DNA of 64,000 nt from Erysipelatoclostridium sp. An173 (GTDB lineage Bacteria > Bacillota_I > Bacilli_A > Erysipelotrichales > Coprobacillaceae): positions 1 through 64,000 of the forward strand of contig NZ_NFKR01000002.1 in assembly GCF_002160495.1 (NCBI RefSeq), read 5' to 3'. Shown here piece after piece: positions 18,055 through 23,755 of the stretch (positions are counted from its first letter, which is position 1; every line of letters begins with the position of its first letter). The position numbers and the translations under genes were made by a program. The notes under the pieces are model-generated. The model worked only from the letters and a program-made list of their open reading frames with translations, did not search any database and was not told the DNA's origin.

Positions 18055-18678
18055 ATGAAAGAAAAAGTTATTATTGGTGAAAGGATTGGAATCAAAACTA
18101 TTTTAGCGGGATATGTAGAATGGAGCATATTTGGCTTGATGGGAGCTGTTGGATTTTATAATTTGGTTGGACGTTATTTCATTAGTGATTCTAGAGTTAA
18201 TTTGTTAGTATCATTGATTATTTTTATAGTAGTTGTGTTATTAGTAACTCCACTTTTTGGAGCAAATGAGTATTTAGAGTTTTCTAATGAAAAGGTATGT
18301 CATTATCGAGCTGGTAGTTATTTACAAAAGTGGTATCGAGCTATTATGATAATAATGAAAAAACCTGATTTGTGTAATTTGGAAATAAAAACTAGTGAAA
18401 TTTATAGTGTACAATTATCTTATGTACGTTTTACGATGCTTTATGGACAAGCTGGTTATCAGTTAAAAATGACATTTTTATTAAAAGATGGTAGTTTGTT
18501 TTCTGTTTTACCAGCAGGTATTGATGATATGAAAAAAGGAAGATTCGAACAGGCATTTTCATTATTAGAGGAAAATGGGGTAACAATTGTTGATAAATTT
18601 AATTTAAGAAGTGTTTTAAATGATAAAAACAGTTTCTATTTGCATATTAAAGAAATTGAGGATTTGGAAAAATGTTAA
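18055..18678 (+). CDS. Two-pass membrane protein with a cytoplasmic PH-like domain
   Basis: A 207-residue protein, not assigned to a family. Two hydrophobic segments (about 18-40 and 48-72) are followed by a beta-rich cytoplasmic part beginning NEYLEFSNEKVCHYRAG, which resembles the bacterial PH-like or YcxB-type domains attached to short membrane anchors. AGGAGG precedes ATG. Its last seven bases overlap the LytTR gene, so the two are likely produced together; a membrane sensor or anti-activator for the LytTR protein is a reasonable guess. Confidence 0.6.
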   Translation: MKEKVIIGERIGIKTILAGYVEWSIFGLMGAVGFYNLVGRYFISDSRVNLLVSLIIFIVVVLLVTPLFGANEYLEFSNEKVCHYRAGSYLQKWYRAIMIIMKKPDLCNLEIKTSEIYSVQLSYVRFTMLYGQAGYQLKMTFLLKDGSLFSVLPAGIDDMKKGRFEQAFSLLEENGVTIVDKFNLRSVLNDKNSFYLHIKEIEDLEKC

Positions 18679-19292
18679 AGGTATTGTTAGTTTGTCAAAA
18701 GGAAAGTAATGAAATGTTGAAATCATTACTTAAAAATAGTTTAGAAACTGTTGAGTTTATCGATGAAGAAATGGTAGATAATAATTGTATTATAATAAAA
18801 GAAATAGATGATAATATTGATGGGATTTCTAATTTAGTTAATTATCAGGGGCTTGTTTTTATGGTTAGTGATGGTAAGTATATGTTTGAATTATTAGAAT
18901 ATAAACCACTAGCATTTATTCGTAAGGATCATTTGCAAGAAGATATTGATTTTATTAGAGGTCAGTTAGAATATTTTAAGCAAGGATTAGAGTCATATAT
19001 TGATTTTAAATCAAGCTATCAAACGGTAAGAATGAAAATTAATAATATTGTATATATTGAATCTTTTGCTCATTATTTAATTATTCATAGTAAAAGTGCT
19101 AATGTGCGGGTAAGAGAAAAGCTCTCTACAACGTTAGATAAGTTAAAACCATATGGTTTTATTCAGGCTCATAAGTCATATATAGTTAATAAGCATTATT
19201 TAAAACAAAAAAATAATCGTGAATTGAAATTAGAAAATGGGATAACTATTCCTGTTGGGAAGAAATTTCAACAAGTAATTAAAGATCTTTAG
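18672..19292 (+). CDS. LytTR DNA-binding regulator with degenerate receiver
   Basis: A 206-residue regulator. The N-terminal 100 residues are the length and shape of a compressed receiver (KVLLVCQKES, later PLAFIRKDHL), but the acidic pocket and phospho-acceptor Asp are absent, so phosphorylation is unlikely. The C-terminal LytTR domain (about 115-206) is well conserved, with VRMKINNIVYIESFAHYLIIHS and FIQAHKSYIVN. LytTR proteins bind paired direct repeats upstream of their targets. No histidine kinase is adjacent; the overlapping membrane gene may take its place. Confidence 0.8.
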   Translation: MLKVLLVCQKESNEMLKSLLKNSLETVEFIDEEMVDNNCIIIKEIDDNIDGISNLVNYQGLVFMVSDGKYMFELLEYKPLAFIRKDHLQEDIDFIRGQLEYFKQGLESYIDFKSSYQTVRMKINNIVYIESFAHYLIIHSKSANVRVREKLSTTLDKLKPYGFIQAHKSYIVNKHYLKQKNNRELKLENGITIPVGKKFQQVIKDL

Positions 19293-19320: not shown

Positions 19321-19600
19321 TATTAAAGTTTCAATCTTTATACATTCTTAATATCTTGCGTGCTAAGATATGGTTCGTTGAATAAGTGGTGGAGTCTGTC
19401 ATAAAGCGATTGCTTTATTTATTCAATGTAAGATTACTTAAATAACGGTATTTAAAGTTACAGGTAAATTACTATTAGTAAAAGAATTTATGTTAAATCT
19501 TTTATCTTTGACAGACCTTGAAAGGGGGAAGAATTTTATTTAGTGGTAATTTAAGTTAGAAATTTTTAAATATTTATTTAGTTATTATAGTAATTAGGAG
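19321..19600 (+). promoter_or_regulatory. Structured leader upstream of the P-type ATPase
   Basis: The 290 bases before the ATPase gene hold no gene but several paired segments. ATATCTT/AAGATAT forms a hairpin near 19350-19369. TTGAATAA (19379-19386) pairs with TTATTCAA (19419-19426), with TAAAGC/GCTTTA inside. GTCTGTCA (19394-19401) is complementary to TGACAGAC (19509-19516), which would form a pseudoknot or an alternative fold with the second hairpin. I do not recognise it as M-box, yybP-ykoY or ydaO. It may be an RNA switch responding to an ion or a nucleotide; no terminator stem was found in it. Confidence 0.4.
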
Positions 19601-19608
19601 AGTTTTAT

Positions 19609-22419
19609 ATGGTTTTAAATAAAAAAGACGAATTAGTTGAAAGCCAAATTATTTACATGACACCGGTCGAAGCATACAAGTCAATGGAGACTAGTATGGA
19701 AGGATTGTCAGATATTCAAGTAAGTCAACGATTAGAAAAATATGGTAAAAACGTAATCACCAAGAAAAAGCAGGATTCATTATTTAAAAAGTTTATATCG
19801 AACTTTACAAGTTTGATGGCACTGCTTTTATGGTGTGGTGGAATCATTGCAATTATATCTGGTAGTGTTGAACTTGGGATATCTATTTTCTGTGTCAATT
19901 TAATAAACGGCTTTTTTTCATTTTTCCAAGAATTTAAAGCAGAAAAGGCTACTGGTGCTTTGCAAAAAATGATGCCTTCATATGCAAGGGTAGTTAGAAA
20001 TAATCAAGAAGTAAAAATATTAGCGGAGGATATTGTCCCTGGCGATATTATGATTTTAGAAGAAGGGGATCGGATTAGTGGTGACGCTAGAATTTTACGT
20101 TGTAGTGATTTTAAAGTTGACCAATCAACTTTAACCGGTGAAAGTAATCCGATTCGAAAAAATTATGAAGCTTTAAAAGAAGAGACTAGTTATCTTGAAG
20201 CTGCAAATATGATTTTTACAGGGACGACTGTTTCTTCAGGAACTTGTCATTGTGTTGTAGTTAAAACTGGTATGGCAACTGAATTTGGTAAGATTGCCGA
20301 TTTAACACAAAATACTAAAAAGACATTGTCCCCATTACAAAAAGAACTTAATATTTTAACTAAACAGATTGCTGCAATTGCTTTAAGTGTTGGGATTGCA
20401 TTTATGTTGATTGCTGTTTTCATTATCCAAGATCCAATCATGGAATCATTTATTTTTGCTTTAGGAATGGTCGTAGCTTTTATTCCTGAAGGTCTTTTAC
20501 CAGCGGTAACTTTATCACTAGCACTTTCAGTTCAAAGAATGGCTAAAGAAAATGCTTTAGTTAAAAAATTATCAGCAGTAGAAACTTTAGGTTGTACCAA
20601 TGTGATTTGTTCAGATAAGACCGGTACTTTAACTCAAAATGAAATGACGGTTAATCATTTATGGACGTTTGAAAGCAAATTAGATGTTAGTGGTGAAGGA
20701 TATAGTAGTGAAGGTAATATTCATGATGGTGATAATATCATCACAGTTAATAAAAGTAACACTTTAAGATTATTATTAAGTGGAGCTGCATTATGTTCAA
20801 ATGCTAAGTTGGTACCACCAAGTAAAAACAGTGCTAATGCTCGTTATACTGTTTTAGGTGATCCTACAGAAGCATGTTTGGGTGTTGTCGCTAAAAAAGG
20901 TGGCATTGACTATAAAAAGTTAAATCAAGAGTATCCTCGAATTTTAGAGTTGCCATTTGAGTCAAATCGTAAGAGAATGACAACAATTCATCAATTAAAG
21001 GAACCATTTGAAGGAAGTAACCGGATTGCTTTTATTAAAGGGTCTCCAAAAGAAGTGATGGAACTTTGTAATAAATATTATAGTGGTGGTAAAGCTAATC
21101 AAATAAGTGAAGATGATCGTCAAAAAATTATGGCAGCTAATGATTTATACGCTAAACAAGGTTTAAGGGTATTAGCGGTTGCCTATCGATCTTTATCACA
21201 CAATGATCCAAGTTTGCCAAGTGCAATTAGGGAATATACCCCAGAAAATATTGAACGTGATTTAACATTTCTTGGTTTAGTTGCGATGCAAGATCCACCT
21301 CGCAAAGAGGTTAAAGAAGCAGTTGCTTTATGCCGTAGCGCTGGAATCAAGATTATTATGATAACTGGTGACTATGGATTAACAGCAGAAAGTATTGCTC
21401 GTAAAATTGGGATTATTCAAAGTGAAGACGCTAAAATTATTTCTGGTGTTGAACTTGCAAAAATGGATGATGACCAGTTAAAAGAAGTATTAAAAGGTGA
21501 AGTTGTATTTGCACGTATGGCTCCAGATCAAAAATATCGAATTGTTTGTGCCTTACAGGAATTAGGAAATATTGTTGCGGTAACTGGTGATGGAGTTAAC
21601 GATTCACCAGCATTAAAGAAAGCTGATATTGGTGTTGCAATGGGTATTTCTGGTACAGATGTAGCTAAAGAAGCAGCTGATATGATTTTAACAGATGATA
21701 ACTTTGCTTCAATTGTTAGTGCTATTAAAGAAGGACGGACGGTATATAATAATATTAGAAAATTCTTACGTTATATTTTCGATAGTAACACGCCAGAAGC
21801 TGCTGCTCCTGCGTTATATCTATTTTCTGGTGGTTTAGTTCCTTTACCATTAACGATCATGCAGATTTTAACGATTGATATTGGTACTGACATGGTTCCT
21901 GCTTTAGGACTAGGTGCAGAGCATGGTGAAGATAATATCATGAATCAGCCACCACGTTCATTAGATGAGCGGTTATTAAATAAATCAGTAATTATTAGAG
22001 GATTTCTTTGGTATGGATTATTGCTTACTGTATTTGCTTTAGGTGGTTATTTCTTAGTCAATTACTTATATGGCTGGCCAAATGTTTCATTGGCTCCTGA
22101 AGGAACTTTTGTTTATCAAAAAGCAACGACAATGATGTTAGCAGGTGTTGTTTTTGGACAAATTGCAATGGCTTTAAACAATCGTACTGAAACAGAGTCA
22201 GTTTTAAAGCGTGGTATTTTTTCTAACCATTATATAAATCTTGGTTTTGTAGTTGAAATAGTAATTTTACTATTAATTGTTTATGTGCCTTTTTTTAATG
22301 GTGTTTTTGGTACAGCACCACTAGGAATTTATGAATGGTTATATTTAATCCCAATTCCATTTATTCTATTTGGAATTGAAGAATTAAGAAAGAAAATTGT
22401 GAAAAAAAGAAAAAAATAA
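19609..22419 (+). CDS. P-type cation ATPase of Na,K-ATPase (type IIC)-like kind
   Basis: A 936-residue membrane pump with ten predicted helices. Motifs: TGES (176-179), phosphorylated Asp336 in CSDKTGTLTQNEM, KGSP (478-481), TGDGVND (659-665). Ion-site residues follow the Na,K-ATPase pattern, not the SERCA one: Glu294 in PEGLL of M4, Ser726-Asn727-x-Pro-Glu730 in M5, and Asp757 and Asp761 in DIGTDMVPA of M6. Transport of Na+ and/or K+ is therefore more likely than Ca2+, though databases would probably say calcium-transporting. No beta subunit is seen. Two TrkA-type proteins follow after 11 and 14 bases in what looks like one operon. Confidence 0.85.
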   Translation: MVLNKKDELVESQIIYMTPVEAYKSMETSMEGLSDIQVSQRLEKYGKNVITKKKQDSLFKKFISNFTSLMALLLWCGGIIAIISGSVELGISIFCVNLINGFFSFFQEFKAEKATGALQKMMPSYARVVRNNQEVKILAEDIVPGDIMILEEGDRISGDARILRCSDFKVDQSTLTGESNPIRKNYEALKEETSYLEAANMIFTGTTVSSGTCHCVVVKTGMATEFGKIADLTQNTKKTLSPLQKELNILTKQIAAIALSVGIAFMLIAVFIIQDPIMESFIFALGMVVAFIPEGLLPAVTLSLALSVQRMAKENALVKKLSAVETLGCTNVICSDKTGTLTQNEMTVNHLWTFESKLDVSGEGYSSEGNIHDGDNIITVNKSNTLRLLLSGAALCSNAKLVPPSKNSANARYTVLGDPTEACLGVVAKKGGIDYKKLNQEYPRILELPFESNRKRMTTIHQLKEPFEGSNRIAFIKGSPKEVMELCNKYYSGGKANQISEDDRQKIMAANDLYAKQGLRVLAVAYRSLSHNDPSLPSAIREYTPENIERDLTFLGLVAMQDPPRKEVKEAVALCRSAGIKIIMITGDYGLTAESIARKIGIIQSEDAKIISGVELAKMDDDQLKEVLKGEVVFARMAPDQKYRIVCALQELGNIVAVTGDGVNDSPALKKADIGVAMGISGTDVAKEAADMILTDDNFASIVSAIKEGRTVYNNIRKFLRYIFDSNTPEAAAPALYLFSGGLVPLPLTIMQILTIDIGTDMVPALGLGAEHGEDNIMNQPPRSLDERLLNKSVIIRGFLWYGLLLTVFALGGYFLVNYLYGWPNVSLAPEGTFVYQKATTMMLAGVVFGQIAMALNNRTETESVLKRGIFSNHYINLGFVVEIVILLLIVYVPFFNGVFGTAPLGIYEWLYLIPIPFILFGIEELRKKIVKKRKK

Positions 22420-22430
22420 AGGAGAAGAAT

Positions 22431-23078
22431 ATGAAAATAATAATTGTTGGCTGTGGGAATTTTGGAACCCGTTTAGCGAAATATTTAAATGGATTAAATC
22501 ATGATGTTGTTATTATTGATAACCGTCAGGAAACGTTTAATAATTTAGATGATAACTTTACTGGGAAAACTATTTTAGGTATTGGTTATGACAAAGATAT
22601 TTTAGAAAAAGCGGGTATTAAAACAGCAGATACTTTAGTTAGCTGTTCAAGCAGTGATGCAGTAAATGCAGTAGTAAGTCATATTGCTCATAATATTTAT
22701 CATGTTCCTAATGTAATTGCCCGTATGTATGATAATAAAAAAGCTCGAATTTTTAGATCAATGGGAATCCACATTATTTCAGTAACAGGATTAGGTGTTG
22801 AAAGAATTATGGATTATATTGATACTAGTCGTTTGCAGGTAATTAAAAAAATCGGTGATGATAGTGAAATTAGAGTTGTAAAAATCAAAGCTGGTTTATC
22901 AATGATTGGTAAAACAGTTTTAGAAATTACTAGTCATGGCGAATTTGAAGTAATTGCTATTGAACGCTATGGAACAACTATGATTCCTTTAAAAGATACT
23001 AAAATTATGGAAAATGATGTTGTCTATTTTACTGTATTAGAAGAATCAATTAATGAATTTAAACAAGCTATTTTATAA
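22431..23078 (+). CDS. TrkA/KtrA-type RCK protein, first copy
   Basis: A 215-residue cytosolic regulator made of an RCK_N Rossmann domain (GCGNFGTRLAKYL, with an acidic residue ending strand 2 in VVIIDNR, fitting NAD(H) or nucleotide binding) and an RCK_C domain from about 135. Such proteins gate TrkH or KtrB potassium channels, and the RCK_C part binds c-di-AMP in KtrA. No channel gene is adjacent; instead it follows the Na,K-type ATPase by 11 bases and precedes a second TrkA gene. A regulatory role on the pump is inferred from this context. Confidence 0.85.
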   Translation: MKIIIVGCGNFGTRLAKYLNGLNHDVVIIDNRQETFNNLDDNFTGKTILGIGYDKDILEKAGIKTADTLVSCSSSDAVNAVVSHIAHNIYHVPNVIARMYDNKKARIFRSMGIHIISVTGLGVERIMDYIDTSRLQVIKKIGDDSEIRVVKIKAGLSMIGKTVLEITSHGEFEVIAIERYGTTMIPLKDTKIMENDVVYFTVLEESINEFKQAIL

Positions 23079-23092
23079 TTATGGAGGATAAT

Positions 23093-23755
23093 ATGAGAGT
23101 AATTATTATAGGTGGTGGCCAGGTAGGAACTTATATTGCTGGTTTGCTATATGAAAATCATGATGTTAAAGTAATTGAAAATCGTCCTAAATCAATTGAA
23201 AATTTTAAAAACTATAATCTACCAGAAGAATTACTAGTTATTGGTGATGGTACCGATGTTGATGTTTTAGAAAAAGCTGGTATTAGAGAATGTGATGCTT
23301 TGGTCTGTGTTACTGGTCTTGATGAAATAAACTTAACAGCAGCAATGGTTTCTAAATTTGAATACGATGTACCACGAGTAATTGGACGTGTTAATAATCC
23401 TAAAAATGTCTGGTTATTTAACTCAGGAATGGGAATTGATACTAAGATTAATCAAGCAGATATTATTGGTCATATGATTGCTGATGAAATGAATTATCAA
23501 TCTTTAATGACTTTATTAAAATTATCAAAAGGTGATTATTCAATTGTACGTATTCGAGTAGATTATCATTCTAGTTATGTTGGAAAAACAGTATCTCAAC
23601 TTGATATGCCTAATAACGCTTTATTGATCGCTATCTACCAAGACGATGAATTATTAATTCCTCATGGTGATACAGTAATTGAAGCGGGACAGAATATTTT
23701 AGCTTTTGGTGATGATCAGGCAATTGAAAAATTGAATCAGATTTTTACTAGCTAA
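23093..23755 (+). CDS. TrkA/KtrA-type RCK protein, second copy
   Basis: A 220-residue paralogue of the preceding protein, with RCK_N (IIIGGGQVGTYIAGLL, then VKVIENRP) and RCK_C (from about 135, with VGKTVSQLDMPNNALLIAI). The two copies are clearly diverged and may form a hetero-oligomer like the tandem halves of E. coli TrkA. ATG at 23093 is used because GGAGG lies seven bases before it; an in-frame ATG at 23081 would include that site. It is the last gene of the ATPase operon. Confidence 0.85.
   Translation: MRVIIIGGGQVGTYIAGLLYENHDVKVIENRPKSIENFKNYNLPEELLVIGDGTDVDVLEKAGIRECDALVCVTGLDEINLTAAMVSKFEYDVPRVIGRVNNPKNVWLFNSGMGIDTKINQADIIGHMIADEMNYQSLMTLLKLSKGDYSIVRIRVDYHSSYVGKTVSQLDMPNNALLIAIYQDDELLIPHGDTVIEAGQNILAFGDDQAIEKLNQIFTS

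Follow-up and report, generated by a model that had tools for sequence, protein, structure and literature searches.

What do two RCK proteins do behind an ATP-driven ion pump? This question is raised by a locus of Erysipelatoclostridium sp. An173 (contig NZ_NFKR01000002.1, positions 1 to 64,000; this whole 64,000-nucleotide stretch is called the window), where a gene for a P-type ATPase resembling animal Na,K-ATPase is followed by two genes for TrkA-like proteins, here named RCK1 and RCK2. On the strength of sequence comparisons, we posit with a probability of roughly 0.6 that RCK1 and RCK2 form a ring that controls this P2C-like pump, and that the three genes constitute a module for K+ homeostasis.

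Layout and conservation of the operon

19609..22419, + strand: ATPase, P2C-like (Na,K-ATPase-type) P-type, 936 amino acids (aa); from Pfam, NCBIfam (no named class above its cut-off), PDB profile ranking and tree
22431..23078, + strand: RCK1, TrkA_N + TrkA_C, 215 aa, with GxGxxG and Asp30; from Pfam, motif and best PDB match (first half of TrkA)
23093..23755, + strand: RCK2, TrkA_N + TrkA_C, 220 aa from the conserved start, with GGGQVG and Glu33; from Pfam, motif and a slightly better score against the second half of TrkA

Pfam assigns E1-E2_ATPase and Cation_ATPase_N/_C domains to the ATPase; RCK1 and RCK2 each have a TrkA_N and a TrkA_C domain. According to the list of open reading frames and the start of relatives, the genes are separated by 11 nucleotides (nt; ATPase-RCK1) and 14 nt (RCK1-RCK2). 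The first ATG of RCK2 lies at 23081; its relatives start at the equivalent of the ATG at 23093, which is preceded by GGAGG, and the second gap is therefore 14 nt. An earlier note on this DNA had given the same reading frames and gaps, and both were confirmed.

The gene order is widely conserved. One genome per species was scanned with an RCK2 profile and the best 80 RCK2 loci were kept, of which 72 display the order ATPase-RCK1-RCK2. These 72 belong to Bacillota, Chloroflexota and one deltaproteobacterial metagenome-assembled genome (MAG), with Clostridium intestinale, Bacillus marasmi, Caldibacillus thermoamylovorans and many gut MAGs among the Bacillota carriers. The remainder comprises a locus with a broken RCK1 (L109), one cut by a contig end (L105) and six true exceptions (L101, L125, L147, L156, L157 and L162). 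Within Erysipelotrichales, 16 of 196 genomes (An173 included) contain the three-gene operon, and the flanking genes are unrelated. The conservation that the earlier note had proposed to look for across Erysipelotrichia was thus found there and far beyond, in several phyla.

Seen from the ATPase, the picture is similar: 17 of 392 Bacillota genomes carry a match above 50% identity, and in all 17 both RCK genes lie directly behind it. A plasmid of Streptomyces fungicidicus encodes ATPase-TrkA-TrkA with 4-nt overlaps. The gap between ATPase and RCK1 has a median of 2 nt, with a 4-nt overlap in 32 of 91 cases. The distances of the ATPase are correlated with those of the RCK proteins (r 0.76 and 0.81), as joint inheritance alone would likewise predict. 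Relatives of RCK1 were not found in viral contigs. In relatives of Roseiflexus (L108, 6826-9429; L155, 5700-8351), a second, P2A-like P-type ATPase was located directly behind RCK2.

Ion sites and family of the ATPase

The residues expected to coordinate ions were identified as follows:

20488..20490, + strand: codon of Glu294 in M4 (Na,K-ATPase E327); alignment, invariant
21784..21798, + strand: M5 ligands Ser726, Asn727 and Glu730 (Na,K-ATPase S775, N776 and E779); alignment
21877..21891, + strand: M6 ligands Asp757, Thr760 and Asp761 (Na,K-ATPase D804, T807 and D808); alignment
22159..22161, + strand: Gln851 in M8 (Na,K-ATPase Q923), kept in 80/81 operon-type ATPases; the D926 position is Met854 and not conserved; alignment
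22255..22257, + strand: Glu883 in M9 (Na,K-ATPase E954), kept in 77/81; alignment

The alignment compared 81 distinct operon-type ATPases with Na,K-ATPase alpha1 and alpha3 (from the PDB), LMCA1, SPCA1 and SERCA1a, the last being identical to 1iwo. The equivalents of E327, Y771, S775, N776, E779, D804, T807 and D808 are invariant in all 81, which bears out the earlier assignment of Glu294, Ser726, Asn727, Glu730, Asp757 and Asp761 as counterparts of the Na,K-ATPase ligands. SERCA, LMCA1, SPCA1 and the Ca-ATPase paralogues of the An173 genome carry N instead of D at position 804. LMCA1, SPCA1 and the paralogues, though not SERCA, also have G, T or A at one or more further ligand sites (in the paralogues, 775 is G and 779 is A). 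The match of the ligands therefore exceeds what chance would give. At positions 923 and 954, the residues of the Ca2+ pumps likewise differ from the Q and E of Na,K-ATPase.

Site III is less well preserved. Y771, Q923 and E954 are kept. Position 774 mostly holds N, D, T or S and position 926 mostly M, N or A, and the place of T772 is almost always taken by I. A complete Na+ site III (Y771, T774, Q923, D926, E954) is thus not a feature of the operon-type ATPases. Judged by these residues, sites I and II of the ATPase are Na,K-like and complete and Na+ site III is incomplete. Because site III is without Asp926, a 3Na:2K cycle is not to be assumed, and the stoichiometry may be altered, with fewer than 3 Na+ predicted.

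With regard to family, none of the ion-class models of NCBIfam scored above its cut-off and only the general HAD-IC P-type model passed. The PMR1-type Ca model reached 656.8 bits and the IIC model (TIGR01106) 628.6 bits, the cut-off of the latter being 946.1. A profile of the operon ATPases searched against the PDB ranked Na,K-ATPase at the top (693 bits), followed by SPCA (647), LMCA1 (639) and SERCA (626). A tree computed by maximum likelihood from 35 sequences is divided by a 100/100 branch, with the two Na,K alphas, the window ATPase and its relatives from bacteria on one side and SERCA, SPCA1, LMCA1 and two LMCA1-type ATPases of the An173 genome on the other; a quick tree of 55 rows without SPCA1 agrees. 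The Na,K, SERCA and SPCA branches of the tree are long, and PMCA, ENA, P3 and archaeal P2C ATPases were left out of it; their NCBIfam scores, where modelled, were far lower. Phylogeny, which had been suggested as a check of the Na,K-type affinity, hence placed the ATPase on the Na,K side and not among Ca2+ pumps, in agreement with PDB ranking and ion sites. A search for the Na,K beta subunit (PF00287) gave no match, with a control that also matched nowhere. An AlphaFold model of the ATPase based on 15 sequences was not used (predicted local distance difference test score 65, predicted template modelling score 0.40, much of the membrane part below 50).

The RCK pair and the leader RNA

The best PDB match of RCK1 is the first half of TrkA. 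RCK2 marginally prefers the second half (95.3 against 91.5 bits), and both proteins match TM1088A:TM1088B (3l4b), a two-subunit entry with four copies per chain. Owing to these matches, RCK1 and RCK2 are best read as a TrkA that is split into two proteins. The nucleotide-pocket motif GxGxxG is found in 89 of 91 RCK1 and 82 of 91 RCK2 sequences, with an acidic residue next in most RCK1. In KtrA, rings of this kind are switched by ATP/ADP (PMC4714889).

Regulation by cyclic di-AMP (c-di-AMP), as suggested in the earlier note, is not supported. A diadenylate cyclase is encoded in the An173 genome. The published RCK_C motif for c-di-AMP, (I/L)(I/L)X2DX1RX5N(I/L)(I/L) (PMC10117811), occurs in 0/91 RCK1 and 0/91 RCK2, a weak test because the KtrA-like proteins of the An173 genome miss the strict motif as well. 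Its absence makes c-di-AMP control of the RCK pair less likely.

Three TrkH/KtrB genes are present in the An173 genome, and an RCK gene adjoins each of them. In six further operon-bearing genomes, all 10 TrkH/KtrB genes adjoin a KtrA- or TrkA-like gene of their own, which amounts to 13 of 13 for the seven genomes together. No TrkH/KtrB partner is encoded with the RCK pair at the operon. As all three TrkH/KtrB genes have their own RCK, the operon pair is surplus and not orphaned, and the idea that it serves an orphan TrkH was rejected. The lack of a K+ channel, as initially described, therefore holds for the operon and not for the genome, and the search for trkH/ktrB proposed at the time gave no lone gene. 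Many Erysipelotrichales (L069-L081) have a more divergent RCK pair immediately in front of a TrkH-like gene, frequently with a two-component system nearby; in many cases, the first member of the pair is a short protein of about 140-150 aa with TrkA_N only.

The operon is preceded by a leader RNA with two elements:

19377..19427, + strand: 5' hairpin of the leader, with a GAAUAA stem, a 15-nt 5' bulge GUGGUGGAGUCUGUC and the stem AUAAAGC/GCUUUAU; covariance model, 79.3 bits
19510..19522, + strand: GACAGACC segment, complementary to the bulge GAGUCUGUC at 8/9 positions; 5' arm of an intrinsic terminator in relatives, not significant in the window alone (shuffle p 0.39)

The layout of the hairpin is GAAUAA-[GUGGUGGAGUCUGUC]-AUAAAGC...GCUUUAU-UUAUUC. 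A covariance model (R1) built from 6 leaders has matches at E <1e-12 in 18 of the 196 Erysipelotrichales genomes; at family level, the leader is present in 14 of 43 genomes. It is strongly conserved among same-genus genomes, occurs as a single copy in An173 and nearly always as one copy per genome elsewhere. In all 18 Erysipelotrichales genomes with strong matches, the leader stands solely before the operon ATPase or a TrkH/KtrB gene. It precedes the ATPase in An173, G003, G057, G074, G094 and G063, and KtrB/TrkH genes in relatives without the operon (PF02386 was confirmed for four TrkH/KtrB cases). By genus, the leader is followed by KtrB/TrkH in g3, g10, g11, g16, g25 and g65; in g1, g19 and g44 the RCK-ATPase operon follows it (leader loci in relatives: L200-L209, L218, L226, L227 and L230).

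Most leaders carry, further downstream, an intrinsic terminator with a 5' arm complementary to the bulge GAGUCUGUC, which gives the leader RNA the appearance of a transcription attenuator. In the window, no clear terminator arm is seen, and just the 3' copy GACAGACC at 19510 is left. When single sequences are shuffled, pairing between the bulge and the GACAG segment downstream mostly fails to reach significance (p 0.02-0.53); the argument for it lies in its position and in compensatory changes in two leaders (U-A to G-C in L218 and U-A to G-C in L230). Rfam 15 contained no match to the leader up to E 5, and scans of 14 kb of the window and of 12 operon loci gave no leader family at the operon. 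The leader model also had matches (E 2e-4 to 9e-3) in six members of the class with small genomes; these resembled coding sequence or A/T hairpins and were rejected. We posit that this leader is an undescribed RNA that may tie regulation of the operon to K+ uptake.

A candidate K+ homeostasis module and its alternatives

In the module that we propose, the ATPase is probably a nucleotide-controlled K+/Na+ pump. RCK1 and RCK2 would assemble like TrkA or TM1088A:TM1088B, as a ring or hetero-oligomer, and their GxGxxG pockets would bind NAD(H), ATP or ADP. The ring may then bind to the cytosolic face of the pump and switch it on and off, or tune its rate, by nucleotide. Driven by ATP, the pump would import K+ and probably export Na+, and it may fill the regulatory slot that KtrB holds in relatives. 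In more general terms, we lean slightly towards the view that RCK rings also regulate a primary P-type pump, namely a widespread bacterial Na,K-ATPase homologue with dedicated RCK1 and RCK2 subunits which, in Erysipelotrichales, would be expressed through an attenuator-like leader in common with KtrB.

Several observations weigh against control of the pump by the RCK pair. The channels and transporters on which RCK proteins are known to act are dimers or tetramers, and here a ring would have to fit an ATPase monomer. The loss of Asp926 from site III also belongs here, as do the RCK2-like genes without the ATPase (6/80), one of which follows a KimA-like permease. An ATPase on an L. plantarum plasmid (52% identity) is nested in the clade and has no RCK genes, and these are likewise missing from distant cyanobacterial (43-44%), actinobacterial and mollicute-like ATPases, the last in six genomes of the 392-genome scan (39-41% identity). 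The ATPase fold therefore needs no RCK. The permease case is a Thermoflexales MAG (L147, 3-3503) whose related RCK pair lies behind a KimA-like APC permease and not an ATPase, a further tie to K+ transport.

The RCK pair might instead share a transcript with the ATPase so that the three genes are expressed together, and act in trans on TrkH/KtrB as an extra gating ring. This would agree with the classic role of RCK proteins, with the three TrkH/KtrB genes of An173 and with the divergent RCK pairs that adjoin TrkH in the same order. We consider it unlikely, given that every TrkH/KtrB gene in the seven genomes already has an adjacent RCK; moreover, the order ATPase-RCK1-RCK2 is kept across phyla despite changing flanks, for which co-expression alone is a poor explanation. 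Less likely again is an exporter of Na+ only (or H+ only) without K+ counter-transport, in which the RCK proteins sense redox or energy state. The missing Asp926, the lack of a beta-subunit gene near the operon and the biochemically reported Na+ pumping of a cyanobacterial ATPase (PMC2928168) would fit such an exporter, whereas the K+-coordinating residues of site II are complete, and leader RNA and RCK proteins both point to K+ homeostasis. It is very improbable that the ATPase is a P2A pump for Ca2+ or another divalent ion with a superficial Na,K resemblance. The PMR1-type model did score slightly above the IIC model, both below cut-off, but the 100/100 branch, the PDB ranking, D804 and Q923 in place of the N and E of SERCA, and the leader common to KtrB all speak against it, and it was rejected on the tree and the ion sites.

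The preferred reading, a Na,K-type pump under RCK control, has partial parallels in known systems. With animal Na,K-ATPase alpha (P2C), the pump shares its side of the tree, complete sites I and II and the residues Q923 and E954; it differs in its length of ~936 aa, in the absence of Asp926 and Thr772, and in having RCK partners in the operon instead of a beta or FXYD partner. Archaeal P2C ATPases are similar in being prokaryotic, of uncharacterised function and equipped with Na,K-type sites, a likeness by description and not by sequence; for methanogens, all three Na sites are reported as kept in section 7 of a 2023 review (PMC10654040). The review describes the function of prokaryotic P2C ATPases as unsolved, a question asked for archaea, and mentions neither RCK nor KTN nor, in that section, bacterial cases. 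TrkA/KtrA rings and TM1088A:TM1088B (3l4b) offer two RCK units per functional TrkA and the GxGxxG nucleotide pocket, though the operon RCKs are encoded behind a P-type pump and not with TrkH/KtrB. KdpFABC (P1A) also joins a P-type ATPase for K+ uptake to a part from K+ channel systems; Kdp borrows the channel (KdpA), whereas this module, with a P-type ATPase of another class, would borrow the cytosolic gating ring. KhtTU and CpeAB combine an RCK protein with a non-channel transporter, which is a secondary antiporter with the c-di-AMP motif (PMC10117811), unlike the primary pump of the operon, where the motif is absent.

In a full-text search of the open-licence literature, no description of a P-type ATPase under RCK control was found, in line with the earlier note, which knew of no described case. 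Public annotation does show ATPase and TrkA genes side by side, on the S. fungicidicus plasmid. Both parts belong to known families; as far as this literature was searched, their combination is undescribed. The module offers a testable answer to what Na,K-type ATPases do in prokaryotes: the pump would serve K+ homeostasis under the nucleotide-sensing rings of K+ channels. If this is true, primary active pumps would join the targets of RCK proteins, and a model of the Na,K-ATPase cycle with a soluble regulator and no beta subunit would become available. The leader could be studied as a possible K+-related RNA sensor.

Some minor observations concern variants and neighbours of the operon. In G003, a single-contig genome of the same genus, the ATPase is spread over two frames of 385 and 553 aa (L057, 3877-6701), and the RCK genes and leader are intact; the gene may be a pseudogene or subject to phase variation, or the assembly may be wrong at this point. 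The gene 3' of RCK2 encodes an LD-carboxypeptidase (Pfam) and lies outside the module. On the 5' side (18055-19292 of the window) are genes for a 207-aa protein without a Pfam match and for a LytTR-domain protein. The operon of L054 has this pair beside it too, and elsewhere the An173 genome contains a similar one (L083, 1360-2581).

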